NCBI GenBank assembly: GCA_017552715.1
Contig: JAFZOW010000018.1
Location: forward strand, 1 to 62,196
Length of the DNA: 62,196 nucleotides
Source: Lachnospiraceae bacterium
GTDB taxonomy: Bacteria; Bacillota; Clostridia; Lachnospirales; Lachnospiraceae
Direction: 5' to 3'
Part shown: piece after piece, positions 14,349 through 41,089 of the stretch
Layout of the letters: the number at the start of each line of letters is the position of its first letter
Position numbering within the stretch: the stretch's first letter is position 1
Program-made: the position numbers and the translations under genes
The notes under the pieces: generated by a model
Seen by the model: the letters and a program-made list of their open reading frames with translations, nothing else
What the model was told of the DNA's origin: nothing
The model's database searches: none

Positions 14349-14377
14349 TTGACGGAATCCCGCTTTTGTGTTATAAA
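14349..14377 (+). promoter_or_regulatory. Sigma-A promoter of the cobalamin operon
   Basis: TTGACG (14349-14354), a 17-base spacer and TATAAA (14372-14377) form a near-consensus promoter. The predicted transcript would start around 14384, just before the riboswitch. It is divergent from, and about 50 bases away from, the glycan-operon promoter. Confidence 0.75.
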
Positions 14378-14384
14378 CTCCCTT

Positions 14385-14560
14385 GTTTACAGGTGGAGCC
14401 ATGAGCGTAAGCAGCTCACGGGGCTTGTTAAATGGGAACCGGGTGAAACTCCCGGACAGTGCCGCTACCGTATAGCCGGATCTCAGCCTGCGAACAGGCA
14501 CACAAGCTTTTCCGAGTCAGAGAAGAGTGCCGAGGAGTCGGATCGCCGGCTCTCCTTTTG
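14385..14560 (+). ncRNA. Cobalamin (adenosylcobalamin-type) riboswitch
   Basis: The leader carries the conserved core of the cobalamin riboswitch: GGGAA at 14434-14438, GGTGAAACTCC at 14442-14452, and a B12-box-like ACAGTGCCGCTACCGTA at about 14456-14472. Flanking GC-rich segments can form the surrounding helices. The leader runs from the predicted transcript start to a terminator-like expression platform ahead of btuF. In this family cobalamin binding normally lowers expression, so the uptake and late-assembly operon should be on when cobalamin is scarce. The outer boundaries given are approximate. Confidence 0.9.
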
Positions 14561-22207: not shown

Positions 22208-23042
22208 AAAGATCATGATACAGGGAACAATGTCCTCTGTGGGGAAGAGCCTTTTGACGACAGGGCTTTTGCGTGTCCTGAAACGACGGGGAAGAAAGGC
22301 AGCTCCCTTTAAATCCCAGAATATGTCGAGTATCGCACACACACTGGAGGGCGGCCTTCAGCTTTCCAGGGCGCAGGCCATACAGGCGGAAAGTGCGGGG
22401 ACGGAAGCTATGCCGGAGATGAACCCCATCCTTCTAAAGCCCTGCGGGGATATGCGCTCCGAGGTGATCGTGATGGGGAAGAGCCGCGGGGAAATGCCGG
22501 GGATGGAATATTTTGCACGTAAGAAGGAATACATTCCGACCATCATGGAAGCCTTTCACAGGCTGGAAGAAGCGTACGATACGATCGTTATCGAAGGGGC
22601 GGGGAGCCCGGCAGAGATCAATCTGAAGAAGGATGATATCGTCAACATGGGACTGGCGAAGCTGGTGGATGCACCGGTGCTGCTGGTGGCTGACATCAAT
22701 CCCGGCGGGGTCTTTGCTCAGATCTACGGAACGCTGGCTCTGTTGGAAGAGGAAGAACGGGCCAGGGTCAAGGGCATCATCATCAATAAATTCAGGGGAG
22801 ATATACGGATCCTGGAGCCCGGGATCAAACAGATCGAGGGACTGTGCGCTGTGCCGGTGCTTGGAGTACTCCCCTATATGAAGATAGATATCGAGGAGGA
22901 AGACAGTCTGAAGGACGCGCGTAACGTGAAAACGGAACGTTCGGCTGCGGACCGGACATATCGGGAGGAACAGTACGATGTCCTGGCAGATGCCATGGAG
23001 AAGGATCTGGATATGGAAACCATCATAAATATATTAAGGTAA
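22200..23042 (+). CDS. cbiP: Cobyric acid synthase-like protein lacking the glutaminase domain
   Basis: The 280-residue protein begins exactly like CobQ/CbiP: MIQGTMSSVGKSLLTTGL (P-loop), FKSQNMS, AQAIQAESAG, NPILLKP, EGAGSPAEINL, ADINPGGVFAQIYGT and INKFRGD, reaching VLGVLPYMKIDIEEEDSL. Normal CobQ/CbiP is about 490-510 residues, with a C-terminal class-I glutamine amidotransferase domain. Here that domain is absent: after a short linker the sequence goes straight to YREEQYDVLADAMEKDLDM, which resembles the extreme C-terminal tail of clostridial CobQ. This suggests an in-frame internal loss of about 200 codons. The protein may need free ammonia or a separate glutaminase, or may be non-functional. 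No trans-acting glutaminase gene is adjacent. Confidence 0.88.
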   Translation: MAEKIMIQGTMSSVGKSLLTTGLLRVLKRRGRKAAPFKSQNMSSIAHTLEGGLQLSRAQAIQAESAGTEAMPEMNPILLKPCGDMRSEVIVMGKSRGEMPGMEYFARKKEYIPTIMEAFHRLEEAYDTIVIEGAGSPAEINLKKDDIVNMGLAKLVDAPVLLVADINPGGVFAQIYGTLALLEEEERARVKGIIINKFRGDIRILEPGIKQIEGLCAVPVLGVLPYMKIDIEEEDSLKDARNVKTERSAADRTYREEQYDVLADAMEKDLDMETIINILR

Positions 23043-25871: not shown

Positions 25872-26579
25872 TTGGCTCTTCTGGAAGTAAGGGATCTGTC
25901 CCTGGGATACGATTCCCATACCATCATAGAAGGACTGAACTTCTCCGTGAACGCCGGCGATCATCTCTGTATCGTCGGCGAGAACGGGGCGGGGAAGAGC
26001 ACGCTCATGAAGACCCTCCTGCACCTTAAGGAGCCCATGGGCGGGCAGATCCTGTACGGAGACGGGCTGAGCCGTAATGAAGTGGGTTACCTTCCGCAGC
26101 AGACCCCGGTACAAAGGGATTTTCCGGCATCGGTATACGAGATCGTGCTGTCCGGGAATCAGGGGCGCTGCGGCTGGCGGCCCTTTTACAGTAAGGAAGA
26201 CAGGACCAGAGCCCTGGAAGCCATGGAACGGCTGGGGATCACCGAGCTTAAGAAGCGCTGCTACCGGGAACTTTCCGGCGGGCAGCAGCAGCGTGTCCTG
26301 CTGGCCAGAGCTCTCTGCGCCACCCGGCGTCTGCTCCTTCTGGACGAGCCGGTGAGCGGTCTGGACCCGAAGGTGACCGTGGAGATGTACGAACTGATCG
26401 CGGAGCTGAACAAAAGCGGGATCACCATCATCGCCATCACTCATGACATACTGGCTGCCCTGCGCTATGCCAGCCATATCCTGCATATCGGGGAAGAGGT
26501 CTTCTTCGGGACCCGGGATGAATATGCAGCCAGCGACGAAGGGCAGTATTTCTTAAAGAAGAGAGGTGGCCCGGCATGA
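25872..26579 (+). CDS. znuC: Zinc/manganese-type ABC transporter ATP-binding protein (ZnuC-like)
   Basis: The protein has 235 residues from a TTG start; an AAAGGAGG lies about 13 bases upstream, inside the end of the binding-protein gene. All ABC motifs are present: Walker A GENGAGKST, signature LSGGQQQR, Walker B LLLLDEPVSGLD and the switch His in AITHD. The DPKVTVEMYELIAELNKSG segment is typical of metal-family (cluster 9) ATPases. It overlaps the permease start by 4 bases. It would power uptake of Zn2+ or Mn2+ through the next gene product. Confidence 0.88.
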   Translation: MALLEVRDLSLGYDSHTIIEGLNFSVNAGDHLCIVGENGAGKSTLMKTLLHLKEPMGGQILYGDGLSRNEVGYLPQQTPVQRDFPASVYEIVLSGNQGRCGWRPFYSKEDRTRALEAMERLGITELKKRCYRELSGGQQQRVLLARALCATRRLLLLDEPVSGLDPKVTVEMYELIAELNKSGITIIAITHDILAALRYASHILHIGEEVFFGTRDEYAASDEGQYFLKKRGGPA

Positions 26580-27415
26580 TCGAGAAGCTGCAGCTCTATC
26601 TGGAGATCCCTTTTGTGCGCTATGCCCTGATCGTGGGGGTGCTGATCGCACTCTGTTCTTCTTTGCTTGGAGTGACACTGGTGCTCAAACGTTTTTCCTT
26701 TATCGGGGACGGGCTTTCCCATGTGGCCTTCGGCGCCATGGCCATTGCCGCGGTACTGAACCTGAGCAACGATATGCTGCTGGTGATGCCCCTTACCATA
26801 CTCTGTGCCGTGCTCCTTCTGCGTACGGGGCAGCATACGGTGATCAAAGGGGATGCAGCCATCGCCATGCTCTCGGTGGGAGCCCTGGGCTTCGGCTACC
26901 TGATCATGAACATCTTTTCCACTTCATCGAACTTAAGCGGCGATGTGTGCACCACGCTCTTCGGCTCCATGTCGATCCTGACCCTGCGACCGGCGGAGGT
27001 ACGGCTGTGCATCATCTTTTCGATCCTTGTGGTGATTGTGTTTGTTCTGTTCTACAACAAGATGTTTGCGGTGACCTTTGATGAGGATTTTTCCAGAGCC
27101 AGCGGTATGAAGGTCGGGCTATACAATCTGATCATAGCCGTTGTGACGGCAGTGATCATCGTGCTGGCCATGAACCTGGTTGGGTCGCTGCTGATCTCGG
27201 CCCTGGTGATCTTTCCGGCGCTGTCGGCTATGCGCCTTTTCAAGAATTTCCTGTCGGTAACGATCTGCTCGGTGGTGCTCTCGGTGTTCTGCGCCTTCAC
27301 CGGGATCGTGATATCGATACTGGCAGGCACCCCGGTGGGTTCCACCATCGTGGCCATGGATGCGGGAGTTTTCTTTATCTGCTGGATCATCGGCAGGGTA
27401 AAGGGAGGTAAGTGA
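26576..27415 (+). CDS. znuB: Zinc/manganese-type ABC transporter permease (ZnuB-like, ABC-3 family)
   Basis: The 279-residue membrane protein has about eight helices and ABC-3 family blocks: LIALCSSLLGVTLVLKRFSFIGDGLSHVAFG near the N-terminus, and FDEDFSRASGMKVGLYNLI followed by VGSLLISALVIFPALSAMRL. The ATG overlaps the ATPase stop. It is the membrane channel of the metal importer. Zn versus Mn specificity cannot be decided from the permease. Its stop overlaps a GTG that could start the following lipoprotein, though a better ATG lies 6 bases later. Confidence 0.9.
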   Translation: MIEKLQLYLEIPFVRYALIVGVLIALCSSLLGVTLVLKRFSFIGDGLSHVAFGAMAIAAVLNLSNDMLLVMPLTILCAVLLLRTGQHTVIKGDAAIAMLSVGALGFGYLIMNIFSTSSNLSGDVCTTLFGSMSILTLRPAEVRLCIIFSILVVIVFVLFYNKMFAVTFDEDFSRASGMKVGLYNLIIAVVTAVIIVLAMNLVGSLLISALVIFPALSAMRLFKNFLSVTICSVVLSVFCAFTGIVISILAGTPVGSTIVAMDAGVFFICWIIGRVKGGK

Positions 27416-28041: not shown

Positions 28042-29619
28042 ATGGATGCCCCGTATCTGGATACGGTCCTGTATGATAATTTTTACGAACTCCTGAAGGG
28101 ACGTTTCGGGGACAGCGCGGAAAAAAGCGCGATACGCTATTTCGCAGGGGACGAGATCGTAAGCATCAGCTATCGTGAGCTGGTCCGTCGCGTCGCCTGC
28201 GTCTATTTCTATCTTAAGGAACATCTGAAGGACGGAGCCCATATCGGGATACTCTCCGAAAACCGTTATGAATATATCGTGATCTGGCTGGCCGCCGTCT
28301 TCGACCATGTGATCGTCCCCCTGGACAAGGAACTGGATGCGGAGAGCCTGGCGGAGAGCGGGAAGGCTTTTGACATTGACTTCCTTTTCTGCACGGAAAA
28401 GACCATGAAGGCGGCGGAAGGGGCTTTTGGCTGTGAGCTGTCTTGCATCGACCGCTCTTTTTCTGCTATCATAGAAAACGGCGATCCCGTGGAGCGTTTT
28501 TTCGGGAGCGTGGAGCATACGGATGCGGAACGCTTTGCTGTGCTGGCCTCCACCTCCGGTACCGACGGGCGGATGAAGGGTGTCATGCTCTGCCAGAGGA
28601 ATGTGATCATGAACATCCGGGGGACACTGGAAAACAATGTGCTTAAGGATCCCACCCTGGCCTTTCTTCCCATGAACCACAGTTACGGCTTTCATCCCTG
28701 CATCCTGGCAACGTTATATAACGGAACAACGCTCTGCCTCAATACGGAGCTGAAGCACCTGGCCCGGGATCTGAAGGCCTTTGACCCCTACTTTTTCGGG
28801 GCAGTCCCCATGGTGGTGGAGGGCCTGTATGACAAGATCCTGCGGGAAGTAAAGCGGCGGGGAAAGGAAAGGACCTTCCGGCGAATGATCGCCCTCAGTA
28901 ACGGGCTGCGAAAGCTGGGCATCGATCTGCGGCATCTCTTTTTCGGGAAGTTCATCAACCCGCGGCTGCGCCTGGTAGTGAGCGGTGGCGCTCCTTTGGG
29001 GGCAGAGGCCGTAAAGCGCTTTGATGAACTGGGGATAACGATCCTAAACGGCTACGGCCTGACGGAATGTTCCCCTACGGTGGCGGTGAGCCGGGCCTGT
29101 CAGAATGTGCCGGGCAGTGCCGGCTTTATCATGAAGCACATAGAAGTGAAGACGGCGGAAGACGGGGAACTGCTGGTAAAAGGCCCCTGTGTGATGCTGG
29201 GATACTATAAGGACGAAGCTTCCACGAAAGCCGTGATGCGGGGAGAGTACCTTGCCACCGGTGATCTGGGGCATACCGAAGGAAAGATCCTCTTTGTCAC
29301 GGGCAGGAAAAAGAACCTGATCATACTGGGGAACGGTAAAAATGTGGCGCCGGAGTACCTGGAAGGGAAGCTGGGGGGCCTGGAGGCCGTCCGGGAATGC
29401 CTGGTGGTGGCGGCTAAAGGAGCGGGAAAGGAGAAGATCATCCGGGCCCTGATCCGCCTGAAGGAAGGGGCGGATGCTTCGGAGCTGAAGGAAGGGATAG
29501 ATGGGATCAACCGAGGCCTTCCGCCCTGGATGCGGATCGCGGACAGCAGGATCCTTACGGAAGAATTCGAAAAAAACGGATCGGGAAAGATCCTTCGGAG
29601 CAGGTATACGGATGTTTGA
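28042..29619 (+). CDS. AMP-forming acyl-CoA/acyl-ACP ligase (ANL superfamily)
   Basis: This 525-residue adenylating enzyme carries the complete ANL motif set: STSGTDGRMKG near residue 170 (P-loop), NGYGLTECSPTVAV near 336, TGDLG, GRKKNLIILGNGKNVAPEYLE, and the catalytic lysine in NGSGKILRSRY near the C-terminus. It activates a carboxylic acid as an acyl-AMP and passes it to a thiol. Because the next gene, overlapping by 8 bases, is an acyl carrier protein, loading of that carrier is more likely than CoA ligation. The substrate acid is unknown. It is the first of eight closely packed genes that include five radical SAM proteins. Its ribosome site is predicted to be in a hairpin. Confidence 0.9.
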   Translation: MDAPYLDTVLYDNFYELLKGRFGDSAEKSAIRYFAGDEIVSISYRELVRRVACVYFYLKEHLKDGAHIGILSENRYEYIVIWLAAVFDHVIVPLDKELDAESLAESGKAFDIDFLFCTEKTMKAAEGAFGCELSCIDRSFSAIIENGDPVERFFGSVEHTDAERFAVLASTSGTDGRMKGVMLCQRNVIMNIRGTLENNVLKDPTLAFLPMNHSYGFHPCILATLYNGTTLCLNTELKHLARDLKAFDPYFFGAVPMVVEGLYDKILREVKRRGKERTFRRMIALSNGLRKLGIDLRHLFFGKFINPRLRLVVSGGAPLGAEAVKRFDELGITILNGYGLTECSPTVAVSRACQNVPGSAGFIMKHIEVKTAEDGELLVKGPCVMLGYYKDEASTKAVMRGEYLATGDLGHTEGKILFVTGRKKNLIILGNGKNVAPEYLEGKLGGLEAVRECLVVAAKGAGKEKIIRALIRLKEGADASELKEGIDGINRGLPPWMRIADSRILTEEFEKNGSGKILRSRYTDV

Positions 29620-29854
29620 AGAGATAGGAAAGATTTTGAAAGAGGAATACGGGATCGTTGACATCTCCCGGGATATGGATGTAAAGGGCGGTCTGGGACT
29701 CAATTCCTTTGACCTGATGAACCTGATCTGCATCGTGGAGGAGAGATACCATATCGAGATCGACGAGGAGCAGTACCGTCAGCTGGTGACCCTGGGAGAG
29801 ATGTGTGACTACGTAGAGCTTAAGATCCGGGAGCAGAGAGGTAAGGCGGGATGA
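29612..29854 (+). CDS. Acyl carrier protein
   Basis: This 80-residue acidic helical protein uses the ATG at 29612, overlapping the ligase end by 8 bases. GLGLNSFDLMNLI places a serine at residue 32 in the position of the 4'-phosphopantetheine attachment site (usually DSL, here NSF). Helix II/III residues such as EERYHIEIDEEQY follow the ACP pattern. It likely carries the acyl group activated by the upstream ligase so that the following enzymes can act on a thioester. It is a dedicated carrier rather than the general fatty-acid ACP, judging by its context and the non-standard residue before the serine. It overlaps the next gene by 4 bases. Confidence 0.88.
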   Translation: MFEEIGKILKEEYGIVDISRDMDVKGGLGLNSFDLMNLICIVEERYHIEIDEEQYRQLVTLGEMCDYVELKIREQRGKAG

Positions 29855-30948
29855 AGCTGATATCCGCATCGGATAAAAAGCTGAAAAAACGTTTTCTGGG
29901 ATTCCGGAAAAAACTGTACCGGGATGCGAGGCTCTACGTTGATAACAATTACTTTATGCTTCAGGAGATCTTCGGAGGGAAGCTGCATTTTACGAAAGGA
30001 AAAAAGCTCCTTCCTGTCTTTGTGGAAGCCGATGAGGGGAAGATCCTCTGTGAGGCTGTTTTTTTCTATGCCCCCGAGCTTCCGGACAGCCTGCAGCTGT
30101 GCTTTTTTGAAAGCCTGCCCGAACAGGAGGAGGCTGTGGATCTTTTGCTGGGGGAAGCTTCCCGCTTTGCAAAGGAATGGATCGGAGGAGAGGCGCAGCT
30201 GATCGTGGGCTTAAGCGGCCATGTGAATTACGGTCTGGGACTGCTGGCCTCCCATTATGAGGAGAAGAATTCTTTTTCCTCCCCGGGGAATCCCGAATAC
30301 TATAATGAGTATTTCAGAAAACGCGGCTTCGGGGGAGTGTGGCTGAATTCTTATATCGCGGAAGGGCTTACGGGGCGGCTGGACCGTTATTCCCATCTGC
30401 TTGCAAAGCTTGACCGCTCCTACAGCTTCCGCAGCTTTGATAAAAAGCATTTCGAACGGGATGCGCAGATCTATACGGAGCTTAACAACCTCTGTTTTGC
30501 GGATCACCGTTATTACTATAAAAGGGAAGCCGTCGATGACGCGGAGATGCTTAAGGAACTCTTTCTCTTCATGAAAGAGGATTCGCTGATCTATGCTTTT
30601 CGCGGGGAGGAGCCGGCGGGCTTTATCCTCTGGTACCCGGATTATAACGAACTGGCGGAAAGGGGAGAGGCTTTCGGAGTGAAGCATTATTTTCGGAACA
30701 TCTTCGGCAAGGGAAAGCTCCGTACCGGTAAGGTGATGGAATACGGCGTGCTCCAGAAGTACCGGGGCAGCGGCCTTGCTCTGGCCCTGATCCGGGAAGC
30801 TTACCGCACCATAGGGGAATACGGCTATGACCGGGTGGAGTCCTCCTGGATCCTTGCGGAAAACGAAGATTCCAACAGCTTCTGCAGCGCCCTCTGTGAC
30901 GGACTCTATAAGAAATATGTGGTCTATGAAAAGGCGGTGGGTGTATGA
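29851..30948 (+). CDS. GNAT-like N-acyltransferase of the radical SAM cluster
   Basis: The 365-residue protein has a C-terminal GNAT-type core: EEPAGFILWYPDYNE, then GKVMEYGVLQKYRGSGLALALIREAY with the QxxGxGxA acyl-CoA/phosphopantetheine loop, then SSWILAENEDSNSF. The N-terminal ~180 residues are less recognisable but resemble the first half of double-GNAT acyltransferases. Coupled to the carrier protein by a 4-base overlap, it could transfer the ACP-bound acyl chain to an amine or hydroxyl acceptor. The acceptor is unknown. It ends in an ATGA overlap with the first radical SAM gene. Confidence 0.78.
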   Translation: MKLISASDKKLKKRFLGFRKKLYRDARLYVDNNYFMLQEIFGGKLHFTKGKKLLPVFVEADEGKILCEAVFFYAPELPDSLQLCFFESLPEQEEAVDLLLGEASRFAKEWIGGEAQLIVGLSGHVNYGLGLLASHYEEKNSFSSPGNPEYYNEYFRKRGFGGVWLNSYIAEGLTGRLDRYSHLLAKLDRSYSFRSFDKKHFERDAQIYTELNNLCFADHRYYYKREAVDDAEMLKELFLFMKEDSLIYAFRGEEPAGFILWYPDYNELAERGEAFGVKHYFRNIFGKGKLRTGKVMEYGVLQKYRGSGLALALIREAYRTIGEYGYDRVESSWILAENEDSNSFCSALCDGLYKKYVVYEKAVGV

Positions 30949-32330
30949 GAGTGCTGCTTTTCCGTCCCAGACCGGATCCCGAGACCATAGGCCTGCAGAA
31001 CGTGATGATCTGCGAGCCACTGGAACTGGAGTATATCTCTTCCAATATCGAAGCCCTGGGACACAAATGCCGTATCGTGGATATGATCCTGGAGAAGCGG
31101 GATGTGAGCTTCTTTGTAAAGAAATACCGGCCCCAGGTGGTGGGGATCAGCGGCTACATCACTCATGTGAACATCATGAAGGAGTATGCCCGCGCCGCAA
31201 AGGCCTGTGATCCCCGTATTCGCACCATCGTGGGGGGCGTGCATGCGGAGGTGAACCCGCAGGATTTCGACTGTGAGGAGATCGACTATATCATACGTGC
31301 CAACGGGATACGAACCTTTATCGAGATCCTTGACAGCCTGCAGCACAAGCGACCGGCGGCGGAGATCCCCTGCGTTTACGGGAAGGACAAGGCGGCGCCG
31401 AAAAAGGAGCTGAGCTTTTCCTATCGTTTTCCGGACCGGGACAAGGTGAGGAAATACCGTTCAAAGTATTACTACATGTTCCACCGCAACTGCACCCTGA
31501 TCAAGACCTCCTTCGGCTGCCCTTACAATTGTAAATTCTGCTTCTGCCGGCAGGTCATGGACGACCAGTATTTCGCCCGGGACCTGAACAATATCGTGGA
31601 AGAACTGGAGAGCATACGGGAGACGGAGATCTACATCGTGGATGACGATTTCCTGGTGGGGCGGCAGCGTATCCTGGACTTCTGCGATCTGCTGGAAGAA
31701 AAGGGGATTAAAAAGAAATACCTGATCTACGGCCGGGCGGATTTTATCGCGGCCAATGAGGATGTGATAAAGCGCTTTAAGAGCGTGGGCCTGCGGGCCG
31801 TGATCGTGGGGCTGGAAAGCTGCGACAGCAGGCAGCTGGATGATTACAACAAACGCACCAATGTGCGTATCAATGAAAAGGCCGTGAACATCTTAAAGAA
31901 GTATGATGTGGAATGCTACGGCACCTTCATCTTGGGACTGGACTGGACATGGGCGGACTTTTATGCCCTGTACCGCTGGATCAAAAAGCTGGGGCTGGTC
32001 TTTGTGAACCTGCAGCCCTTAACGCCTCTGCGGGGTACCGAGATCTATGAAAAGTACCGTCCGCGCTTCATCGTGCGGGAGGATGAATATGAGAAGTGGG
32101 ATCTGGCCCATCTGGTGGTGCGGCCGGATCACATCAGCGTGCGGCGATATTACTGGTATACCATGGTCCTGTATTACCTGATCACGGCCAATCCCGTGAG
32201 CGCCTGGTATATGGTAAAAAAGTACGGTCTGCATGATACCCTGAAGCTGAGTTGGGGCGCCATGAAGGTGAACCTGCAGTATTGGAAGAAACTGATCGAG
32301 GGCGAAAAATGTCAAAGAAAGAAAAACTGA
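30945..32330 (+). CDS. B12-binding-domain radical SAM protein, copy 1
   Basis: The 461-residue protein has an N-terminal cobalamin-binding-type Rossmann domain (VLLFRPRP..., VVGISGYITH, IVGGVHAEV) of about 130 residues. The radical SAM core has the 4Fe-4S motif CPYNCKFC (Cys192, 196, 199). Conserved stretches after it are EIYIVDDDFLVG, YGRADFIAA and VIVGLESCDS. The architecture is that of class B (BchE-like) enzymes, which methylate unactivated carbons or rearrange rings using methylcobalamin or cobalamin. The usual GEGE element after the B12 domain is replaced by RANGIRTF. It is one of four close paralogues in this operon; the substrate is unknown. Confidence 0.9.
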   Translation: MRVLLFRPRPDPETIGLQNVMICEPLELEYISSNIEALGHKCRIVDMILEKRDVSFFVKKYRPQVVGISGYITHVNIMKEYARAAKACDPRIRTIVGGVHAEVNPQDFDCEEIDYIIRANGIRTFIEILDSLQHKRPAAEIPCVYGKDKAAPKKELSFSYRFPDRDKVRKYRSKYYYMFHRNCTLIKTSFGCPYNCKFCFCRQVMDDQYFARDLNNIVEELESIRETEIYIVDDDFLVGRQRILDFCDLLEEKGIKKKYLIYGRADFIAANEDVIKRFKSVGLRAVIVGLESCDSRQLDDYNKRTNVRINEKAVNILKKYDVECYGTFILGLDWTWADFYALYRWIKKLGLVFVNLQPLTPLRGTEIYEKYRPRFIVREDEYEKWDLAHLVVRPDHISVRRYYWYTMVLYYLITANPVSAWYMVKKYGLHDTLKLSWGAMKVNLQYWKKLIEGEKCQRKKN

Positions 32331-33640
32331 GGATACTGCTGCTGCGTCCGAAATATTCCTCCATCGTGGCCAATCTGGAACCGCTGGGGCTGGAGTATCT
32401 GGCGGGTCTGGCGAAGGAGCTTAATCTGCCCTGCGCCATACATGACGAATTCCAGTATTCCTGGATCCTCCGTTATGAAAGGCTCTGCAGGGCCATACGC
32501 ATCGGTCGTTTCAACTTCATCGGCTTCAACGCCAATGCCAATACCGTGGATTATATCAACGAAACGGCGGCACGCCTTAAGAAGGACTTCCCGAAGCTCT
32601 TTGTCATGGTGGGGGGGCCGGATGCGGAGGTCAATTATGCGGACTACTGCACCGATGCCGTGGATCTGGTCTATCACGATAACGGGCTTATGAGTCTTAA
32701 GAATATCTGGAGCCGGGGGCTTACGGAGGAAGTGTTCGCCGCTCAGAGCGGTATCTGCTATAAGTCCGGAGGCCGGTGGGTGGTTAAGGAAAAGGGGGCG
32801 CCGGTCTGCGGCTTTATCAATAAGCCGGACCGTACAGCCTTCTATAAGGGGCTGAAGAAGAACTTCATCTTCATGAAGGGAAAGTATGCCCTGAGCAAGG
32901 CTTCCTTCTCCTGCCCTTATTCCTGCGCCTTCTGTTACTGCACCAAGATGAACAGCGGGGAGTATACGGAACGTAACCTCATGGAGGTGGTGGATGAGGT
33001 GGAGGAGATCCGCCACGACAAGATCTGGTTTGTGGACGACACCTTCTTTTTTGACAAGGAAAGGGTGCGGGCCTTTTGCAACGAGATCCTGAAGCGGGGT
33101 ATCAAGAAGACCTTCATGGCCTATGCCCGGGCGGACTTTATCGCGGCCAATCCCGACATCCTGCCCCTGGCTTACAAGGCCGGCTTCCGTGACATCCTGG
33201 TGGGGCTGGAGGCTATTTCGGACGAGCTTCTGGATGACTACAACAAGCAGACTTCCCGGGACGAGAACATCCGGGCCATACGAAATCTTCAGGATAACAA
33301 CCTGGTGTGCAACGGCCTGTTCGTTATCGACTATAAGGCAACGCGGGAGGATTTCCGCAAACTTCTGGATTTCATTCACGAATATAATCTGCTGTGGGTG
33401 ATCTTCGGCATCTTTACCCCCTACAAGGGTACGGATGCTTACGAGCAGTATAAGGACCAGATGAAGGGCTTCCGCTCAGAGCTTCTGGACGGGACCCACA
33501 TCACCCTGAAACCCACCAACATGAGTTCTTTTGAATTCATGATGCGCTATTACATGCTGCATGTGCTGACCTACCCGAAGATCATGGTGCGCACCCTCTT
33601 TGGGACTGGGTATGATACTAAGAAAACCGGATGGATCTGA
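32309..33640 (+). CDS. B12-binding-domain radical SAM protein, copy 2
   Basis: The protein has 443 residues from the ATG at 32309, overlapping copy 1 by 22 bases. The N-terminus LLLRPKYSSIVANLEPLGLEYLAGL shares the EPLxLEYL block with copies 1, 3 and 5; MVGGPDAEVNYADY follows in the B12-type domain. The cluster motif is CPYSCAFC (Cys202, 206, 209). WFVDDTFFFDKERV, YARADFIAAN and ILVGLEAIS repeat the pattern of copy 1. YHDNGLMS replaces the GEGE element. Paralogy within one operon suggests successive modifications of one substrate or of related positions. No TRAM or UPF0004 domain is present, so it is not an MTTase. Confidence 0.9.
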   Translation: MSKKEKLRILLLRPKYSSIVANLEPLGLEYLAGLAKELNLPCAIHDEFQYSWILRYERLCRAIRIGRFNFIGFNANANTVDYINETAARLKKDFPKLFVMVGGPDAEVNYADYCTDAVDLVYHDNGLMSLKNIWSRGLTEEVFAAQSGICYKSGGRWVVKEKGAPVCGFINKPDRTAFYKGLKKNFIFMKGKYALSKASFSCPYSCAFCYCTKMNSGEYTERNLMEVVDEVEEIRHDKIWFVDDTFFFDKERVRAFCNEILKRGIKKTFMAYARADFIAANPDILPLAYKAGFRDILVGLEAISDELLDDYNKQTSRDENIRAIRNLQDNNLVCNGLFVIDYKATREDFRKLLDFIHEYNLLWVIFGIFTPYKGTDAYEQYKDQMKGFRSELLDGTHITLKPTNMSSFEFMMRYYMLHVLTYPKIMVRTLFGTGYDTKKTGWI

Positions 33641-33685
33641 TAAACGCGAGGGTCAGCGAAGCGCTGCCCGAACCAGGAAAACGGG

Positions 33686-35005
33686 GTGGATATGAAACAG
33701 CGATACATGTTTGTCCGCGTACATTATGATAAGCGGGTGGCCAGCCTGGAGCCTCTGGGGCTGGAGTATCTTCTGGCCTGCGTGCGGGCGGAGGGGCGCA
33801 AGGGCCTGATCCACGACGAGAGCCTGGAGGCCCCCTTCTTCCGTTTTGAACGGCTGCTTCAGAAGGTGGACCGTTTAAAGATCAGCATCGTAGGCTTCTC
33901 CGTAATGAGCAATACGGCGCATTATGTGCTGAAGCTGATACGGAAGCTCCGTAAGGCGAGGCCCCGGGTAAAGATCATGGTAGGCGGGCCGGAGGTCATC
34001 ATGAATCACGAAGACTTCATGCTGCCCGAGATAGACTTTATCTCCTATGATAACGGCCTGGATTCCTTCCGGCTGGCGGTGCGTAACGATTTTGCGCCGG
34101 AGATCCTGAAGGACTGTACGGGGCTGTCCTATAGATCGGACAGCAAATGGCTGGACAATCCCAAGGGGGCTCCCGTGAGCGATTACGGCATACTGCCGGA
34201 CCGCAGCTTTTTCTACCGGCACCGCAGGCAGTTCCGCGTGCTGGCCAAGGGCTGCTTTTCCATGATGAAGACCAGCTTTTCCTGCCCCCAGAACTGCAAG
34301 TTCTGTGTTTCCAGGCATTTCAACAGCTGCAGCTTCCGGGAGCGCAGCGTGGACGCCGTGGTGGATGAGATCCTTCATCTGGATAACGACAAGATCTTTG
34401 TCATCGATGATGATTTTCTGGTCAATAAGAAAAGGATAGAAGAGATCTGCCGGCGCCTGCTGGCATCCGGTCAGCACAAGACCATCATGTGTTTCTCAAG
34501 GGCGGACAGTATCGTGAACTGCGCCGACATCCTTCCCCTTTTGTACGAGGCAGGCATAAGGGATATGCTGGTGGGGCTGGAGGCCGTGGAAGACAGCACC
34601 CTGGAAAAATACAACAAGAATTCCAGCGTGAGGCTGAACCGTGAAGCGGTGAAGCTCCTGCGCGATCATCATATGGTCTGTGTGGGGCTTTTCGTGATCA
34701 ATTACGATTTTACCCACAGAGATTTTATGCGCATCAATGAGTTCATCCGCAGGGAAAAGCTGATCTGGGTACTCTTCAGCATACTGATCCCTTTCAAGGG
34801 TACGCCGGTCTATGAGGAGAACAAGGACAGGCTGTACCGTTATGAGTACAAACGTACCGGCGGTACCGATGTGCTGATGCGGCCGTCGAAGCTGCCCATG
34901 TGGCTCTTCAAGCTGGAATTCCATTTCCTTTACTATGTGAATTATCCCCGTATTTACTGGGCGGGGCTGACCCGGACTTTTAACCGGGAATACCGGAACC
35001 GATGA
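33686..35005 (+). CDS. B12-binding-domain radical SAM protein, copy 3
   Basis: The protein has 439 residues from GTG 33686, with AGGAAAA about 6-8 bases upstream; ATG 33692 is the alternative. The B12-type domain starts YMFVRVHYDKRVASLEPLGLEYL and contains MVGGPEVIMNHEDF and SYDNGLDS. The radical SAM motif is CPQNCKFC (Cys200, 204, 207). IFVIDDDFLVNKKRI, CFSRADSIVN and MLVGLEAVED show it is a paralogue of copies 1, 2 and 5. The 45-bp gap before it holds a small hairpin (CAGCG-AAG-CGCTG, 33654-33666) without a U-tract. It ends in an ATGA overlap with copy 4. Confidence 0.9.
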   Translation: MDMKQRYMFVRVHYDKRVASLEPLGLEYLLACVRAEGRKGLIHDESLEAPFFRFERLLQKVDRLKISIVGFSVMSNTAHYVLKLIRKLRKARPRVKIMVGGPEVIMNHEDFMLPEIDFISYDNGLDSFRLAVRNDFAPEILKDCTGLSYRSDSKWLDNPKGAPVSDYGILPDRSFFYRHRRQFRVLAKGCFSMMKTSFSCPQNCKFCVSRHFNSCSFRERSVDAVVDEILHLDNDKIFVIDDDFLVNKKRIEEICRRLLASGQHKTIMCFSRADSIVNCADILPLLYEAGIRDMLVGLEAVEDSTLEKYNKNSSVRLNREAVKLLRDHHMVCVGLFVINYDFTHRDFMRINEFIRREKLIWVLFSILIPFKGTPVYEENKDRLYRYEYKRTGGTDVLMRPSKLPMWLFKLEFHFLYYVNYPRIYWAGLTRTFNREYRNR

Positions 35006-36321
35006 AGAAAAAGATACTGCTCATACAACCTACGCCTTACGACCAGTACGGGAAGCTGGTGAAGAAGAGCCGCCTATATTTTGTGGGACTGGCCCTGCCG
35101 CTGCTGGCTGCCCTCACCCCTCCGGATTTTGAAGTGGAGCTCTGTTACGAGACTATAGAAGATGTGCCCTTTGATACGGATGCTGAGCTGATCGGCATAA
35201 GCAGCATGGGGCATGCGGTGATGCGTACCATCGATATCGCCAAGCGTTTCCGGGAAATGGGCAAGACGGTGATCCTGGGGGGATACATGGTGTCCCTTAT
35301 GCCGGAGGAAGCAAAGAAATATGCGGATTCCGTCATGATCGGCGACGCAGAGGAGACCTGGGGAGAGATGATCTCGGATTATCTGAACGGGACTCTGAAG
35401 GATTATTATAAAAAGAGGCTGACGAAGCTGGATCCGCCCCTGCCCCGCTACGAACTGATACTGAAGAAAAAGATCGGAAATTTCCTGCCGGTGCAGGCGG
35501 GCCGGGGCTGCCCCAAGACCTGCAGCTTCTGCTCCATCTACTGCCTTTATCACGGACAGTATTTAAAGCGGCCCATCCCGGATGTGATGCGGGATATAAA
35601 GCGGGTGAAGGAGCTGGGCTTTAAGCAGTTCCTGCTTCTGGATGACAACCTGTTCTCGGATCGGGACTATGCCTTCGAGCTGTGCAATGAGATAAAGAAG
35701 CTGAAGATGAAGTGGATGACCCAGTGCTCCGTGGATATCGCCGGGGATGAGGAACTGCTGGATGCGGTGGCGGGCAGCGGCTGCTACGCCCTGAGCTTCG
35801 GCCTGGAGAGCATCAGCAGGGAAAGTCTTCTGGGGATGCAGAAGGGCTGGGCCCACCCGGACCGCTACAGCGAGCAGCTGTCCATCATACGCAGGCACGG
35901 TATCGATATCTCCACCGAGATGGTGGTGGGAGCGGAAGGGGATACCCTGGAATCCATCCGGGCCACTGCGAAGTTCATCGAGGACAACCAGATCGCCGTG
36001 CCCCGCTTCTATATCCTTACACCCATCCCGGGCACGCAGTATTACGAGGAGATGAAGGAACAGGACCGCATCTACAATACGGATATGTATTCCTACAATT
36101 CCTGCGAGGCGGTGCATATCCCGAAGAACATGACGCCGGAGGAACTGACAAAGGCATACTGGGAACTGTACAACGAGGTGTATTCTTACCGCTGCATCTT
36201 AAGAAGGACCATCTTTACACGGAACTTTCTGCGCCGGCCGGGGACCGCACTTTTCTATTTTGCTGTGAACCTGTTTTACCGTAACCATATCAAACACGGG
36301 ATAGTGCCGAACATCATATGA
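35002..36321 (+). CDS. B12-binding-domain radical SAM protein, copy 4 (distinct subtype)
   Basis: The protein has 439 residues. The cobalamin-type domain (LLIQPTPYDQYGKLVKKSRLYFVGLALPLLAAL, LIGISSMGH, VILGGYMVSLMPEEA) keeps the common MIGDAEETW element that the other four proteins have lost. The cluster motif is CPKTCSFC (Cys170, 174, 177). FLLLDDNLFSDRDYA and LSFGLESISRESL follow. It resembles general BchE/hopanoid-type radical SAM proteins rather than its neighbours and probably performs a different reaction. The unusually Cys-rich CSFCSIYC region could hold an extra ligand. ATGA overlaps join it to copies 3 and 5. Confidence 0.9.
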   Translation: MKKKILLIQPTPYDQYGKLVKKSRLYFVGLALPLLAALTPPDFEVELCYETIEDVPFDTDAELIGISSMGHAVMRTIDIAKRFREMGKTVILGGYMVSLMPEEAKKYADSVMIGDAEETWGEMISDYLNGTLKDYYKKRLTKLDPPLPRYELILKKKIGNFLPVQAGRGCPKTCSFCSIYCLYHGQYLKRPIPDVMRDIKRVKELGFKQFLLLDDNLFSDRDYAFELCNEIKKLKMKWMTQCSVDIAGDEELLDAVAGSGCYALSFGLESISRESLLGMQKGWAHPDRYSEQLSIIRRHGIDISTEMVVGAEGDTLESIRATAKFIEDNQIAVPRFYILTPIPGTQYYEEMKEQDRIYNTDMYSYNSCEAVHIPKNMTPEELTKAYWELYNEVYSYRCILRRTIFTRNFLRRPGTALFYFAVNLFYRNHIKHGIVPNII

Positions 36322-37694
36322 GAATATTACTTATTAAACCTGAAACCGTAGGAGTGTTCAGCTATACCTATCTGGTGGAGCATGAGCCTCTGGAGCTGGA
36401 GTATCTTTATACGGCCTTCCGTGCCCAGGGCGAGCAGCCGGTGATCTATGACCGGCGTTACGAGCTCTGTTCCCTTAAAGTCAAACTGAAGCAGGTGCGG
36501 CCGGAAGTGGTGTGCATCACCGGCTATATCACCCAGCAGAAGCTGATGATACGCCTCTGCGACGAGATCAAGGAATGGGATCCTTCGGTGCGCGTGATCC
36601 TGGGGGGCTCCAATGTGGAGATCAATTTCCGGAATTATTATGACTCCCGGGCGGATTATCTCTATCACTTAAGCGGCCTGAAGATGCTCTCAAAACTGCT
36701 GCGCTACATCAGGGCCGAGAAGAGCGGGCGTAAGCTGAAGGCGGATGCGCTGAGCAGTATCCCGGGGATCTGCTACCGCAAAGACGGGGAGTGGATCGTA
36801 AATCCCAAGATCGTGGAAAGCCCGGAGGAGCTGCCGATACCGGACCGTACCTACTTTTACCGGAACATCCGGCGATTCCGCTATCTCTGCTTCCGTCCCC
36901 TGGCGCTGGTGAAGAACTCCTACAGCTGCCGTAAGGCATGTAACTTCTGCTTCTGTACCAACCGTAACAGCGGGCGTTATGCCTGCCGCAATGTGGAGAG
37001 CCTGGTGAACGAGATCGCTTCCCTGGATGTGCCGGCGGTGCATATCACGGACGACGACTTTTTGATCGATGAGGCTTACCTGCGGGAATTCATACGCCTG
37101 ATCCGGGAGAAGGGCGTGCATAAGAAATACCTGATCTACGGCCGGGCGGACTTTATCGCGCACCATGAGGAGCTGATAAAGGAGCTGGCGGAGATCGGGC
37201 TGGCCCTGGTGATGGTGGGGCTGGAGGCCACGGACAAGGCTTCCCTGGATTCCTACAACAAGCATGTCACACCGGAAGAAAACGAAGAGTGCATACGCAT
37301 ACTGCATGAAAACCATATCTTCTGCGCCGGTCTCTTTATCGTGGAGCAGTCCATGACAAAGGCGGACTTTAAGCGCCTCTACCGCTGGATCGCGGAGCGG
37401 GATATCATCCCCACGGTCTCGGTCTTTACTCCCATGCAGGGCTCGGCTATCTATACGAAGTACGAGGATGAGCTGCTGACGAAAGATGTGACGAAACAGG
37501 ATCTGTTCCACTGCCTGCTGGCGCCGGAGCATATGAGCCTGCGCCGTTTCATGTTCGAGTATTACAGGCTTTCCCTCGGCCTTGCCTGGAAGAACCGCAA
37601 CAGCTCCCTTTATGAAGGAAACAACTATCCCGGAGCCATGCTGTACATCCTCTGGGTGCTGCTGGTAAAGCTGAAAAGAAGATTTATCTTATGA
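36318..37694 (+). CDS. B12-binding-domain radical SAM protein, copy 5
   Basis: This 458-residue protein is the last gene of the cluster. The N-terminal domain has EHEPLELEYLYTAF, VVCITGYITQ and ILGGSNVEINFRNYY, with YHLSGLKM in place of the GEGE element. The cluster motif is CRKACNFC (Cys204, 208, 211), with Arg where Pro is common. HITDDDFLIDEAYL, YGRADFIAHHEEL and VMVGLEATDKASL tie it to copies 1-3. No terminator is evident; the promoter of the metal-efflux operon begins two bases after its stop. It is likely anaerobic and oxygen-sensitive, as are all members of the superfamily. Confidence 0.9.
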   Translation: MRILLIKPETVGVFSYTYLVEHEPLELEYLYTAFRAQGEQPVIYDRRYELCSLKVKLKQVRPEVVCITGYITQQKLMIRLCDEIKEWDPSVRVILGGSNVEINFRNYYDSRADYLYHLSGLKMLSKLLRYIRAEKSGRKLKADALSSIPGICYRKDGEWIVNPKIVESPEELPIPDRTYFYRNIRRFRYLCFRPLALVKNSYSCRKACNFCFCTNRNSGRYACRNVESLVNEIASLDVPAVHITDDDFLIDEAYLREFIRLIREKGVHKKYLIYGRADFIAHHEELIKELAEIGLALVMVGLEATDKASLDSYNKHVTPEENEECIRILHENHIFCAGLFIVEQSMTKADFKRLYRWIAERDIIPTVSVFTPMQGSAIYTKYEDELLTKDVTKQDLFHCLLAPEHMSLRRFMFEYYRLSLGLAWKNRNSSLYEGNNYPGAMLYILWVLLVKLKRRFIL

Positions 37695-37695
37695 C

Positions 37696-37755
37696 TTGAC
37701 AAAAGGAGATCGTGGGGGTATAATTTGATCAAACATTTGAATAAATGTTCAGATG
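37696..37755 (+). promoter_or_regulatory. Promoter and ArsR/SmtB-type operator of the metal-efflux operon
   Basis: TTGACA (37696-37701), a 17-base spacer and TATAAT (37719-37724) form a full-consensus promoter. Ten bases downstream, CATTTGAA-TAAATG-TTCAGATG (37734-37755) is an imperfect inverted repeat of the kind bound by SmtB/CzrA/CadC repressors (core TGAA...TTCA). An ArsR-family gene ends this operon, so metal-relieved autorepression is the likely logic. Confidence 0.8.
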
Positions 37756-38128: not shown

Positions 38129-40153
38129 ATGAATAAGAAACAGAAAAAAATGCTGGTCCGTATCATCATAGCGGCGATCCTGATGATCGCGCTGCACTTT
38201 GCCTATGCATTCCTGGGAGAGGACAGCGTGGCGGAGGACGGTACGGTCATACGGGAGGCACTGGTCCGGGAGCCGGTCTGGTTCTTCCTTTACATGATCC
38301 CCTATCTGGTGGTGGGTTATGACATTTTAAAGAAGGCCATAAAAGGCATACTGAACCGGCAGGTCTTTGACGAGAATTTCCTTATGGTGGTGGCCACCAT
38401 CGGAGCCATCGCGGTGGCGCTGGTGGAGCAGAACGGGGACTATACCGAGGCCATCGCCGTAATGCTCTTCTATCAGATCGGTGAACTCTTCCAGAGTTAT
38501 GCCGTGGGAAAGAGCCGGAGGAATATCAGTGCCCTGATGGACATCCGGCCGGACTATGCCAATATCGAAAAGGACGGGGAACTGGAAAAGGTGGATCCGG
38601 ACGAGGTGCCCATCGATTCGATCATCGTGGTCAAACCCGGTGAGAAGATCCCCATCGACGGTATCGTGGTGGAAGGCCGTACAACGCTGAACACCAGTGC
38701 CCTTACCGGTGAAAGCGTGCCCAGGGAAACGGACTGCGGGGACGAGGTGATCAGCGGCTGCATCAACATGACGGGCGTGATCAAAGTGCGTACCACCAAG
38801 GAATTCGGCGAATCCACGGTATCCAAGATCCTGGATCTGGTGGAGAATTCCTCTTCCCATAAATCCCATTCCGAGGACTTTATCAGCAAGTTTGCACGCT
38901 ATTATACACCGGCGGTCTGCGGCAGCGCGCTGGCCCTGGCCATACTGCCGCCGCTCTTTCTTCTGATCACTGGAGGCGATCCGGCTTTCGGGACCTGGGT
39001 TTATCGGGCTCTGACCTTCCTGGTGATCAGCTGCCCCTGCGCGTTGGTGATCAGCATACCCCTCACCTTCTTTGCCGGCATCGGCGGAGCCGGGAACGCA
39101 GGCATACTGGTGAAGGGCTCCAATTATCTGGAGGCCCTGTCTCGCACACGCATCGTGGCCTTTGACAAGACAGGTACCATGACCAAGGGGGTCTTTGAGG
39201 TAAACGGCATCCATCATTCCGGTATCGATAATGCAAAGCTGCTGGAATATGCGGCCCATGCAGAGTGTTTTTCGTCTCATCCCATTGCCAAGAGCATCAT
39301 CCGCACCTATCAGGAAGGTGTGGTCTGGAAGACCAATGAAGCCACGGGAGAGGCGGTGCCCGTGCCCTGTGAAGACAAGAAGATGCACCGGGGCGAGCAC
39401 CGTATCATGAAGGAACGCGTGACCAGTGTGGAAGAGATCGGCGGGAACGGCGTGTCCGCCATGGTGGACGGTCATCGCATCCTGGTGGGGAATAACAAGC
39501 TCATGAAGGCCGAAGGCATCGAAGCCATGGAGTGCCGTTATGTGGGGACCGTGGTGCATGTGGCCGTGGACGGGGAATACAGCGGACATATCCTGATCTC
39601 GGATGTGATCAAGCCTACGGCGAAGGAAGCCGTAAAGGGACTGCATAAGGCCGGCGTGCGCCGTACGGTGATGCTCACCGGGGACGCGAAGAGCGTGGCA
39701 GACAGCGTTGCTGCGGATCTGGGCATCGATGAAGTCCGGAGTGAGCTTTTGCCTGCGGATAAGGTGAGTGCCGTGGAGGAACTGCTCGAAAGCAAGAAGG
39801 AAAAGGAAATGCTGGCTTTTGTGGGTGACGGCATCAATGATGCTCCGGTTCTGTCCCGGGCGGATATAGGCATAGCCATGGGTGCCCTGGGCAGTGATGC
39901 GGCCATTGAGGCGGCGGATATCGTACTGATGGATGACGACCCGGCCAAGATCGCCAAGGCCATACGCATCTCCCGGCGCTGCATGCGCATCGTTTATGAG
40001 AATATATACTTTGCCATCGGCATCAAGCTGCTCTGTCTCGGACTGGGAGCCGTGGGTATAGCCAATATGTGGATGGCCATATTTGCGGATGTGGGCGTGA
40101 TGGTGCTGGCGGTGATCAATGCCATACGGGCGCTGTTTGTAAAGAAGGTGTGA
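38129..40153 (+). CDS. cadA: Zn2+/Cd2+/Pb2+-type P-type ATPase (ZntA/CadA family)
   Basis: The 674-residue P1B-type ATPase has the transport-site CPC at residues 302-304, the phosphorylation motif DKTGT beginning at Asp346, GDGINDAPVLSRADIGIAMG in the hinge region, and TGES in the actuator domain. The C-terminal half of the membrane domain shows the ordinary helices. It has no N-terminal HMA domain; the separate 72-residue HMA protein upstream seems to replace it. The CPC motif and the ArsR context point to export of Zn, Cd or Pb. A His-containing insertion near residues 415-425 (DKKMHRGEHR) may bind metal. Confidence 0.92.
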   Translation: MNKKQKKMLVRIIIAAILMIALHFAYAFLGEDSVAEDGTVIREALVREPVWFFLYMIPYLVVGYDILKKAIKGILNRQVFDENFLMVVATIGAIAVALVEQNGDYTEAIAVMLFYQIGELFQSYAVGKSRRNISALMDIRPDYANIEKDGELEKVDPDEVPIDSIIVVKPGEKIPIDGIVVEGRTTLNTSALTGESVPRETDCGDEVISGCINMTGVIKVRTTKEFGESTVSKILDLVENSSSHKSHSEDFISKFARYYTPAVCGSALALAILPPLFLLITGGDPAFGTWVYRALTFLVISCPCALVISIPLTFFAGIGGAGNAGILVKGSNYLEALSRTRIVAFDKTGTMTKGVFEVNGIHHSGIDNAKLLEYAAHAECFSSHPIAKSIIRTYQEGVVWKTNEATGEAVPVPCEDKKMHRGEHRIMKERVTSVEEIGGNGVSAMVDGHRILVGNNKLMKAEGIEAMECRYVGTVVHVAVDGEYSGHILISDVIKPTAKEAVKGLHKAGVRRTVMLTGDAKSVADSVAADLGIDEVRSELLPADKVSAVEELLESKKEKEMLAFVGDGINDAPVLSRADIGIAMGALGSDAAIEAADIVLMDDDPAKIAKAIRISRRCMRIVYENIYFAIGIKLLCLGLGAVGIANMWMAIFADVGVMVLAVINAIRALFVKKV

Positions 40154-40443: not shown

Positions 40444-40955
40444 AGAGCTTCCGTACTCATATGGGCGTTGCTGTAGCGACGGTCGCCGGTGACGTCTTCG
40501 GAAAACCAGGCTGCGGGGCGGTAGAGCCTTGCGGCTTCTTCATTGGGAAACTCAACTTCGGCCAAAACCCGGCCGTCAAAGGGGGCATCAAAGACATCCA
40601 GTTCGATCCGGAGCCCTGAAAGCGCAGGGTGGGCATTGCGGTAATCTTCTTCGAAGGCATCGTCGTTTAAGGGAAGGATGTAGCGGGTCTTGCGTATCAC
40701 ATTGCCGTCCGCCTTTTCCACCAGATGCTCATAGGATGCTTCGTCCAGGGGCAGGTTGTATTCCGCCTGGCCGATCTCGCCGGGGACGGAAGAGCGGGCA
40801 CCCTTGTAGGTCATGTAGTAATGATCATCCTCCCGGCGCACCCGCAGCGCCGGATCCACATTCAGATAGCCCTGCTCGATCCGGTGCTTCGGATAGCCTT
40901 CCAGCCCGGAGGGCAGCTCCTTTATCAGAAATTTTCTCTCGATCTCCTGTCCCAT
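40440..40955 (-). CDS. CYTH-domain (triphosphate tunnel metalloenzyme) protein
   Basis: The protein has 171 residues from the ATG at 40955; a longer frame to 40991 has no support. The ExExK motif (EIERK, residues 4-8) that defines the CYTH family is at the N-terminus. Alternating basic and acidic strands follow (LRVRREDDHYYMTYKG, AEVEFPNEEAARLYRP), as expected for the triphosphate tunnel. Bacterial members hydrolyse inorganic triphosphate or have unknown nucleotide substrates. It is monocistronic, converges on the ArsR gene and is transcribed away from the M32 peptidase gene. Confidence 0.88.
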   Translation of the reverse strand: MGQEIERKFLIKELPSGLEGYPKHRIEQGYLNVDPALRVRREDDHYYMTYKGARSSVPGEIGQAEYNLPLDEASYEHLVEKADGNVIRKTRYILPLNDDAFEEDYRNAHPALSGLRIELDVFDAPFDGRVLAEVEFPNEEAARLYRPAAWFSEDVTGDRRYSNAHMSTEAL

Positions 40956-40987
40956 GTCAGAACCTCGCTTTACGCTTATTACTCTTA

Positions 40988-41016
40988 ACAATAATCTGCG
41001 GAATGATGGCTGTCAA
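40988..41016 (-). promoter_or_regulatory. Promoter of the CYTH gene
   Basis: On the minus strand TTGACA (41016-41011) and TATTGT (40993-40988) are separated by 17 bases, 32 bases before the ATG. The -10 box is weak but the -35 is perfect. Confidence 0.55.
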
Positions 41017-41054
41017 GCATACGATCCCTTTGCGCCTTCGAGCGGCCCGTCAAC

Positions 41055-41083
41055 TTGCGCTTGCAGGCAAAAAATGGTATCAT
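41055..41083 (+). promoter_or_regulatory. Promoter abutting the M32/HD-GYP start codon
   Basis: TTGCGC (41055-41060), a 17-base spacer and TATCAT (41078-41083) sit directly before the coding region, so the expected transcript start (about 41090) coincides with an ATG. No ribosome site lies between, which would make the mRNA leaderless. Confidence 0.45.
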
Positions 41084-41089
41084 ATGCGC

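Follow-up and report, generated by a model that had tools for sequence, protein, structure and literature searches.

A radical SAM and tandem-GNAT gene set with a recurrent four-gene core in a Lachnospiraceae operon: a candidate anaerobic biosynthetic pathway

What is made by an operon that joins an acyl ligase, an acyl carrier protein, an acyltransferase and five radical S-adenosylmethionine (SAM) proteins? The question is raised by a Lachnospiraceae bacterium (GCA_017552715.1, contig JAFZOW010000018.1, positions 1 to 62,196 of the forward strand; these 62,196 nt are here called the window), in which eight such genes occupy positions 28042-37694. An initial annotation regarded them as one unit acting on a carrier-bound acyl substrate, an interpretation that is partly supported by the present analysis. 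The operon belongs to a gene set that recurs in other genomes, and the core of this set consists of two tandem-GNAT proteins, GN1 and GN2, and two radical SAM proteins, R1 and R4; the ligase, the carrier protein, a BioC-like methyltransferase and the other radical SAM classes are variable.

Regarding its distribution, the set was collected by scanning one genome per species with R1, which gave 49 loci, and by searching a phylum sample with GN2, found in 9 of 398 genomes; seven of these regions were taken, together with three from a search with GN1. The 57 loci mapped do not include L001-L008, and genes were counted on the 37 having more than 1.5 kb of flank on both sides, after 19 short-flank loci and L076 (same contig as L040) were dropped; many loci are closely related rumen metagenome-assembled genomes (MAGs), the counts are not independent, and the orthologue starts are those of mechanical open reading frames (ORFs). 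Within these 37 loci, GN1 occurs in 36, GN2 in 35, R4 in 36 and R1, the bait for most of them, in all; the four are together in 35, the exceptions being L034, which has no GN2, and L056, on a broken contig. The initial annotation had made its proposal depend on the genes staying together in related genomes, and at the level of the core they do. A search of the remaining genome gave no GN2 for L034, L049 or L056 either. As for the window, its cluster has no GN2 either, and the same genome carries this gene on contig 103, near glycoside hydrolase genes, with 54% identity to the L012 copy, outside the stretch that the initial annotation could see.

In the window, all eight genes are intact, lie in the same direction on the + strand and have no internal stop codons: LIG, an ANL-superfamily acyl ligase of 525 aa (28042-29619); ACP, an acyl carrier protein of 80 aa (29612-29854), which sits within a longer mechanical ORF; GN1, a tandem-GNAT acyltransferase of 365 aa (29851-30948); and the radical SAM proteins R1 (30945-32330), R2 (32309-33640, its most likely start being ATG 32309 rather than TTG 32252), R3 (33686-35005), R4 (35002-36321) and R5 (36318-37694). 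The positions and the nearly continuous overlap described in the initial annotation were confirmed; six of the seven junctions overlap (-8, -4, -4, -22, -4 and -4), and co-transcription of the eight genes is likely given these overlaps and the short remaining gap, 45 bases between R2 and R3. The Rfam scan detected no riboswitch or other family at the operon itself.

Four of the five radical SAM proteins are paralogous, and tandem duplication alone can make rows of this kind, so that the genes could in principle have been gathered by chance or by local duplication, with no pathway in common. This explanation was rejected as highly improbable on account of the interval statistics, the single-clade classes and the recurring core. 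PF04055 has 26 matches in the whole genome of 3.43 Mb, which leads to an expectation of 0.073 in the operon interval and to a probability of 1.6e-8 for five or more (∼6e-6 over all such intervals); furthermore, each radical SAM class is a single clade, gene order and partners recur across families, and the four-gene core is present in 35 of the 37 loci.

Regarding the variable part, the ligase occurs in 22 of the 37 loci, R2 in 20, R3 in 19, ACP in 18, R5 in 15 and the methyltransferase in 13, and the rarer radical SAM classes are R6 (8), R8 (8), R7 (3) and R9 (1). The ligase and ACP were rejected as a defining core because the set occurs without them, for example in L044-L047, L069-L071, L073 and L075; a weak ligase-like match in L074 (22%) fell under the 90-bit threshold and was not counted. 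ACP is never found without the ligase, in support of their pairing in the initial annotation, and the ligase is without ACP in four loci. Radical SAM matches per locus range from two to five in 35 of the 37 loci, and the higher values of the other two, L037 and L054, are due to split frames. The common order is LIG-ACP-GN1-GN2-R1-R2-R3-R5-R4, from which the window differs in having R4 before R5 and no GN2. Mutual exclusion between R2 and the methyltransferase was also considered; it held in the first 37 loci and fails in L095-L097, three clusters of the same genus which combine R7, the methyltransferase and R2, and connect the form found in Lachnospiraceae to the one in other families.

The core proteins are not equally conserved: over 38 loci, the median identity is 67% for R4, 58% for R1, 36% for GN2 and 35% for GN1. 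These values would fit two radical SAM steps under stronger constraint and more varied transferases, as may be expected if different acyl or amine partners were placed on one core chemistry. The distance matrices of the four proteins, from which loci without one or more of them and L028, L037, L051, L054, L057 and L076 were left out, correlate at 0.90-0.98, and this correlation shows co-inheritance only. The set is accessory, since R4 at 81% identity or more occurs in only 14 of the 35 genomes of the window's genus, its own included and one having it split over two contigs; the remaining matches are at 57% in one genome and at 34-35% in three. Likewise, GN1 was detected in 8 of 397 genomes of a family sample, with more than 50% identity only in G000, G039 and G112; G039 (53%) and G244 (28%) have GN1 without R4 or GN2, the relatives being at L077:8641-9768 (53%) and L078:9378-10505 (28%).

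The set is also present in rumen Lachnospiraceae, Lachnospiraceae AB2028, Acetoanaerobium noterae and Sedimentibacter hydroxybenzoicus. The A. noterae record (L100, NZ_CP154629.1), with the order GN1-GN2-radical SAM-methyltransferase-R1-R4-R6, is a 2.63 Mb circle filed as a plasmid, and is probably a chromosome. Another record, L050, is titled Fibrobacter succinogenes, and its GN2, R1 and R4 are 78-90% identical to the L052 and L053 copies titled Lachnospiraceae; this is due either to lateral transfer or to a mislabelled MAG. With R4 as query, a viral contig collection contained no relatives and two phage records had a MiaB-like match only; a plasmid collection gave 114 records, 11 of which cover 80% of the protein, all under 60% identity, so that an R4-like protein alone is no marker of the set. 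GN2 matched 20 records of the plasmid collection, none covering 80% of the query, and the best was the Acetoanaerobium record.

The radical SAM proteins all have the CxxxCxxC motif in their translations and exceed the PF04055 cut-off (R1 59.1, R2 59.4, R3 52.9, R4 56.4 and R5 50.3 bits), and PF04055 was found at E ≤ 1e-3 in 52 of 52 R1-family rows and in 30 of 30 R4 rows. As for the N-terminal B12-binding domain (PF02310, cut-off 32.1 bits), R1 (63.2) and R3 (53.3) are above it, and R2 (28.1) and R5 (29.2) are below, despite E values of 2e-6 and 9e-7; it was detected at E ≤ 1e-3 in 52 of 52 sampled R1-family members. By this domain R1, R2, R3 and R5 are assigned to the cobalamin-type (class B) family. 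For R4, the match is marginal (32.4 bits, spanning only positions 40-116 of the 121 of the profile; 27 of 30 R4 rows at E ≤ 1e-3), and a cobalamin domain is doubtful; therefore, the initial count of five B12-type enzymes is safe for four, with the radical SAM core shared by all five.

R4 differs in other respects. R1, R2, R3 and R5 are 28-37% identical to one another, and R4 has 21-27% identity to them over the core, which makes it, by sequence comparison, a separate and better conserved subfamily rather than a paralogue at the same level. Its solved relatives are 6fd2 (apramycin oxidoreductase 4, AprD4), which is the best, 9ccb and MiaB; AprD4 and MiaB are not known to need cobalamin. The R1-family profile matched at E ≤ 1e-5 only OxsB, CysS, 6fd2, TokK, 9ccb and tryptophan C2-methyltransferase among PDB sequences. 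A tree of 48 rows separates, by a single branch, each of the eight classes represented more than once, and R2 is sister to R3 (99/97), R5 to R8 (100/98; R8 is the class of L044 and L047) and R1 to R6 (99/99), in a topology that is midpoint rooted and carries a long-branch warning.

Regarding characterised families, membership in unrelated ones would have counted against the initial annotation; none of the five proteins reached a curated NCBIfam cut-off. The nearest one for R1 is HpnR (TIGR04367), at 186.8 of the 650 bits needed, which is the best result overall; BchE (TIGR02026) gave at most 127.8 (R1) and 122.1 (R3) against 481, and TIGR04072, a lipid biosynthesis B12-binding/radical SAM family, 30.5-74.2 bits against 360, the best being R4, with 84.3 for R4 of L047.

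The ligase matches PF00501 (AMP-binding, 171.1 bits) and PF13193 (26.0 bits), and it scored below the cut-off of every one among the best 25 of 92 NCBIfam families; at E ≤ 1e-20 it matched six PDB sequences, all of them acyl-, feruloyl- or malonyl-CoA synthetases. ACP belongs to the carrier proteins (PF00550, PP-binding, 30.9 bits against a cut-off of 20.8), and the serine of its GLNSFD motif is the candidate phosphopantetheine site, in agreement with the first reading; a serine motif of this kind was found in 27 of its 28 relatives by BLAST, and the remaining one is a different ACP gene of L042, a locus with an ordinary ACP gene on the opposite strand, 6.6 kb past the set. GN1 is over the cut-off for Acetyltransf_1 (30.3 bits), has no NCBIfam family at E ≤ 0.01, and, like the scanned GN2 copies, does not match the FeeM-family PF21926; by hhalign, its match with GN2 is limited to 32 columns. 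Its best structural matches include acetyl-CoA tandem GNATs, with the note that such lists give fold matches only, and absent families are not thereby excluded.

As for GN2, its predicted structure has a tandem-GNAT, FemX-like fold, and the structural alignments with FemX, MprF and the streptothricin Sbb17/Sba18 aminoacyl-tRNA transferases give 7-18% identity. Membership in FemAB by sequence was rejected: hhalign gave nothing significant, and the FemAB profile PF02388 has no match in G000, a genome holding GN2. Related profiles gave mixed scores (PF04339, 23.0 of 27 for L012; PF13480, cut-off 22, with 20.9 for L012, 17.2 for the window-genome copy and 28.4 for L071), and GN2 of L012 has no NCBIfam family at E ≤ 1e-12. 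A lysine, Lys306, followed by x-x-F/L/I/M-G, is conserved in 26 of 26 rows and is the candidate counterpart of FemX Lys305.

PacB, VlmA and DhpH add an aminoacyl group from aminoacyl-tRNA. The best structural matches of GN2 are aminoacyl-tRNA-dependent natural-product enzymes of this kind, and such tandem-GNAT enzymes have a key lysine, as stated in the review PMC12945691. It is conceivable, if unlikely, that the set produces a non-lipid metabolite, in which an amino or aromatic acid on ACP is aminoacylated by GN2 from aminoacyl-tRNA and acetylated by GN1, with the radical SAM proteins C-methylating the amino-acid part; the result would be a modified dipeptide or an antibiotic-like amide, possibly exported. 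The acetyl-CoA GNATs among the best GN1 matches go in the same direction, as do the patchy occurrence and modular content of the set, which suit a specialised metabolite, and the transporters near some loci: a MATE-like gene, named by eye, near five of them (L018:4315-5778, L020:4483-5946, L031:16389-17807, L032:18863-20260 and L033:18938-20311; in L018 and L020 it immediately precedes the ligase), and an EamA transporter adjoining L047. Export of the product is possible given these transporters; however, no transporter or regulator is constant across the loci, and three loci contain genes that indicate acyl-ACP and serine-lipid chemistry.

These genes encode a FeeM-family N-acyl amino acid synthase and a phosphatidylserine decarboxylase (PSD), which lie between R4 and R8 in L072-L074, from two genera (L072:14317-15551, L073:4404-5692 and L074:3487-4721, the L074 pair being placed by the same order and sizes). 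In L072, the gaps of this region are of 40, 14 and 3 bases, and in L073 there are overlaps or a 9-base gap. The cluster copy of PSD looks dedicated, since the L072-L074 genomes each encode another one elsewhere; a single copy outside the cluster is present in each of G476, G443 and G697, and the window genome lacks the gene. BioC is a methylase of ACP-bound malonyl, and the accessory methyltransferase of L047 has it as its nearest family, although at 68.1 of the 185 bits needed. Finally, a Citrobacter portucalensis plasmid (NZ_CP134684.1, L101:10432-21818) has a parallel array with a GH3-type protein, five R4-like radical SAM genes (29.5-31.9% identity to R4; four on one strand and one on the opposite), an N-acetyltransferase, a PAP2 phosphatase and a fatty acid desaturase. 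Together, these leads are suggestive of acyl or lipid chemistry, short of proof.

Such leads might also be read as modification of membrane lipids, in which the radical SAM proteins would methylate or couple acyl chains in complex lipids, comparably to HpnR with hopanoids and Mss with diacyl lipids, and GN1 and GN2 would aminoacylate or acylate the head group. HpnR as the nearest curated family of R1, the resemblance of GN2 to the aminoacyl-phosphatidylglycerol synthase domain, PSD in three loci and the Citrobacter array all lean this way. Yet this reading is improbable: the frequent ligase and ACP pair favours the loading of free acids over finished lipids, the HpnR cut-off was not reached, no hopanoid gene was seen among the scanned flank proteins, and the Citrobacter N-acetyltransferase matches neither GN1 nor GN2 by BLAST.

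With these alternatives weighed, the operon is tentatively proposed to represent one version of an anaerobic biosynthetic pathway not described so far, and the product may well be a C-methylated lipo-amino acid or aminolipid, although at somewhat less than even odds. The ANL ligase would activate a carboxylic acid, most likely fatty or branched, and attach it to the dedicated ACP, or to CoA in loci that encode no ACP; R1, with the accessory R2, R3 and R5, would use the 5'-deoxyadenosyl radical and methylcobalamin to methylate or otherwise alter unactivated carbons, and R4 would carry out a second radical step of unspecified type. From the pantetheine arm, GN1 may pass the acyl group to an amine or hydroxyl, and GN2, through its FemX/aminoacyl-tRNA-transferase fold, may add a further amino acid or acyl unit. 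The initial annotation had the substrate modified several times and then transferred; this is one possible order. Gene content, domain families, predicted folds and co-inheritance are observations, and it is from them that the substrates, the use of cofactors, the reaction order and the product are inferred. A broader suggestion, put forward with some reserve, is that GN1, GN2, R1 and R4 define a new class of natural-product or lipid pathway in anaerobes, free of polyketide synthases (PKS) and nonribosomal peptide synthetases (NRPS), in which the GNATs, one possibly fed by aminoacyl-tRNA, would build an amide skeleton, and a variable complement of two to five radical SAM enzymes would set the pattern of carbon modification, their exchange giving a diversity of products. 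In the scanned flanks, no gene for a PKS or an NRPS was seen, in line with the initial annotation.

The surroundings of the operon add context rather than further partners. Upstream there are two ABC transporter genes (25872-27415; ABC_tran, ABC-3) and a 194-aa ORF with no Pfam match, lipoprotein-like by eye; downstream there is a P-type ATPase (38129-40153). None of these is a constant partner of the set: in L022, L027 and L029, pieces of a P-type ATPase occur some kb before the set, and in L052 and L053 a distant one comes after it. ORF clustering over L001-L057, with family names assigned by eye, gave as neighbour families in at least five loci, beyond the set and opposite-strand ORFs, scattered ABC ATPases (8), the MATE-like transporter (5), a macro-domain-like protein (five) and a long protein in five related loci. 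Directly after the R5 stop and ahead of the P-type ATPase gene, positions 37696-37724 hold a perfect sigma-70 consensus (TTGACA, 17, TATAAT); shuffled sequence yields about as many matches to this consensus as the region does.

Further upstream, the cobalamin genes mentioned in the initial annotation are indeed present, with CobT, CbiB and CobQ over their cut-offs and CobD and CobC below. A cobalamin riboswitch outside the operon (14374-14505, + strand; RF00174, 43.4 bits against a gathering threshold of 31.5) precedes corrinoid uptake and assembly genes, and is the sole Rfam family found in the window; the scan of L012, L047, L070 and L072 gave none. The CobQ-like ORF (22200-23042, 280 aa) covers the first half of cobyric acid synthase (2-241 of 480), and its C-terminal half is seemingly missing or displaced. 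Elsewhere in the window, a single ORF of 1323 aa (40529-44500) is an unusual fusion, in which an M32 carboxypeptidase domain at residues 197-684 is followed by an HD domain at 1106-1240.

Radical methylation of unactivated carbons is a sought-after chemistry, and a compact operon of this set can hold as many as five enzymes of this kind; with its natural module swaps, differences between products would show at which site each enzyme acts. The product can be looked for directly, because the set occurs in rumen Lachnospiraceae and in named strains such as A. noterae and S. hydroxybenzoicus.

Compared with known systems, the enzyme superfamilies are familiar, and the gene combination was not met in the open-access literature searched by titles and abstract starts. 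OxsB, CysS, TokK and tryptophan C2-methyltransferase resemble the R1 family at the superfamily level, and differ from it in their substrates and longer chains. The HpnR hopanoid C-3 methylase and BchE share the cobalamin-type radical SAM architecture over most of the length, with their cut-offs missed. At the thresholds used, PDB searches with R1, R4 and their profiles gave no entry named Tes or tetraether synthase, a comparator of Mss, and no direct comparison was made. GN2 is like FemX, MprF and Sbb17/Sba18 in fold, without a significant sequence match. FeeM enzymes follow an acyl-ACP to amine logic, and a FeeM-family gene accompanies three relatives of the operon and not the operon of the window. 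The nearest logic found is that of the anammox ladderane clusters, for which excerpts of PMC2649909 and PMC9821293 describe an ACP, a SAM methyltransferase and radical SAM proteins, one of which has a B12 domain, with an ACP-bound acyl chain as the proposed substrate. The descriptions in these excerpts also include fatty acid synthase and phytoene-desaturase-like genes, and the fatty acid synthase genes were seen neither in the window operon nor among the scanned flank proteins, the phytoene-desaturase-like genes not in the operon; the GN1 and GN2 pair is absent from those same descriptions and is a feature of the present set. Nevertheless, the combination of ACP, radical SAM proteins and a methyltransferase is common to both, and TIGR04072 is among the distant matches of the radical SAM proteins.

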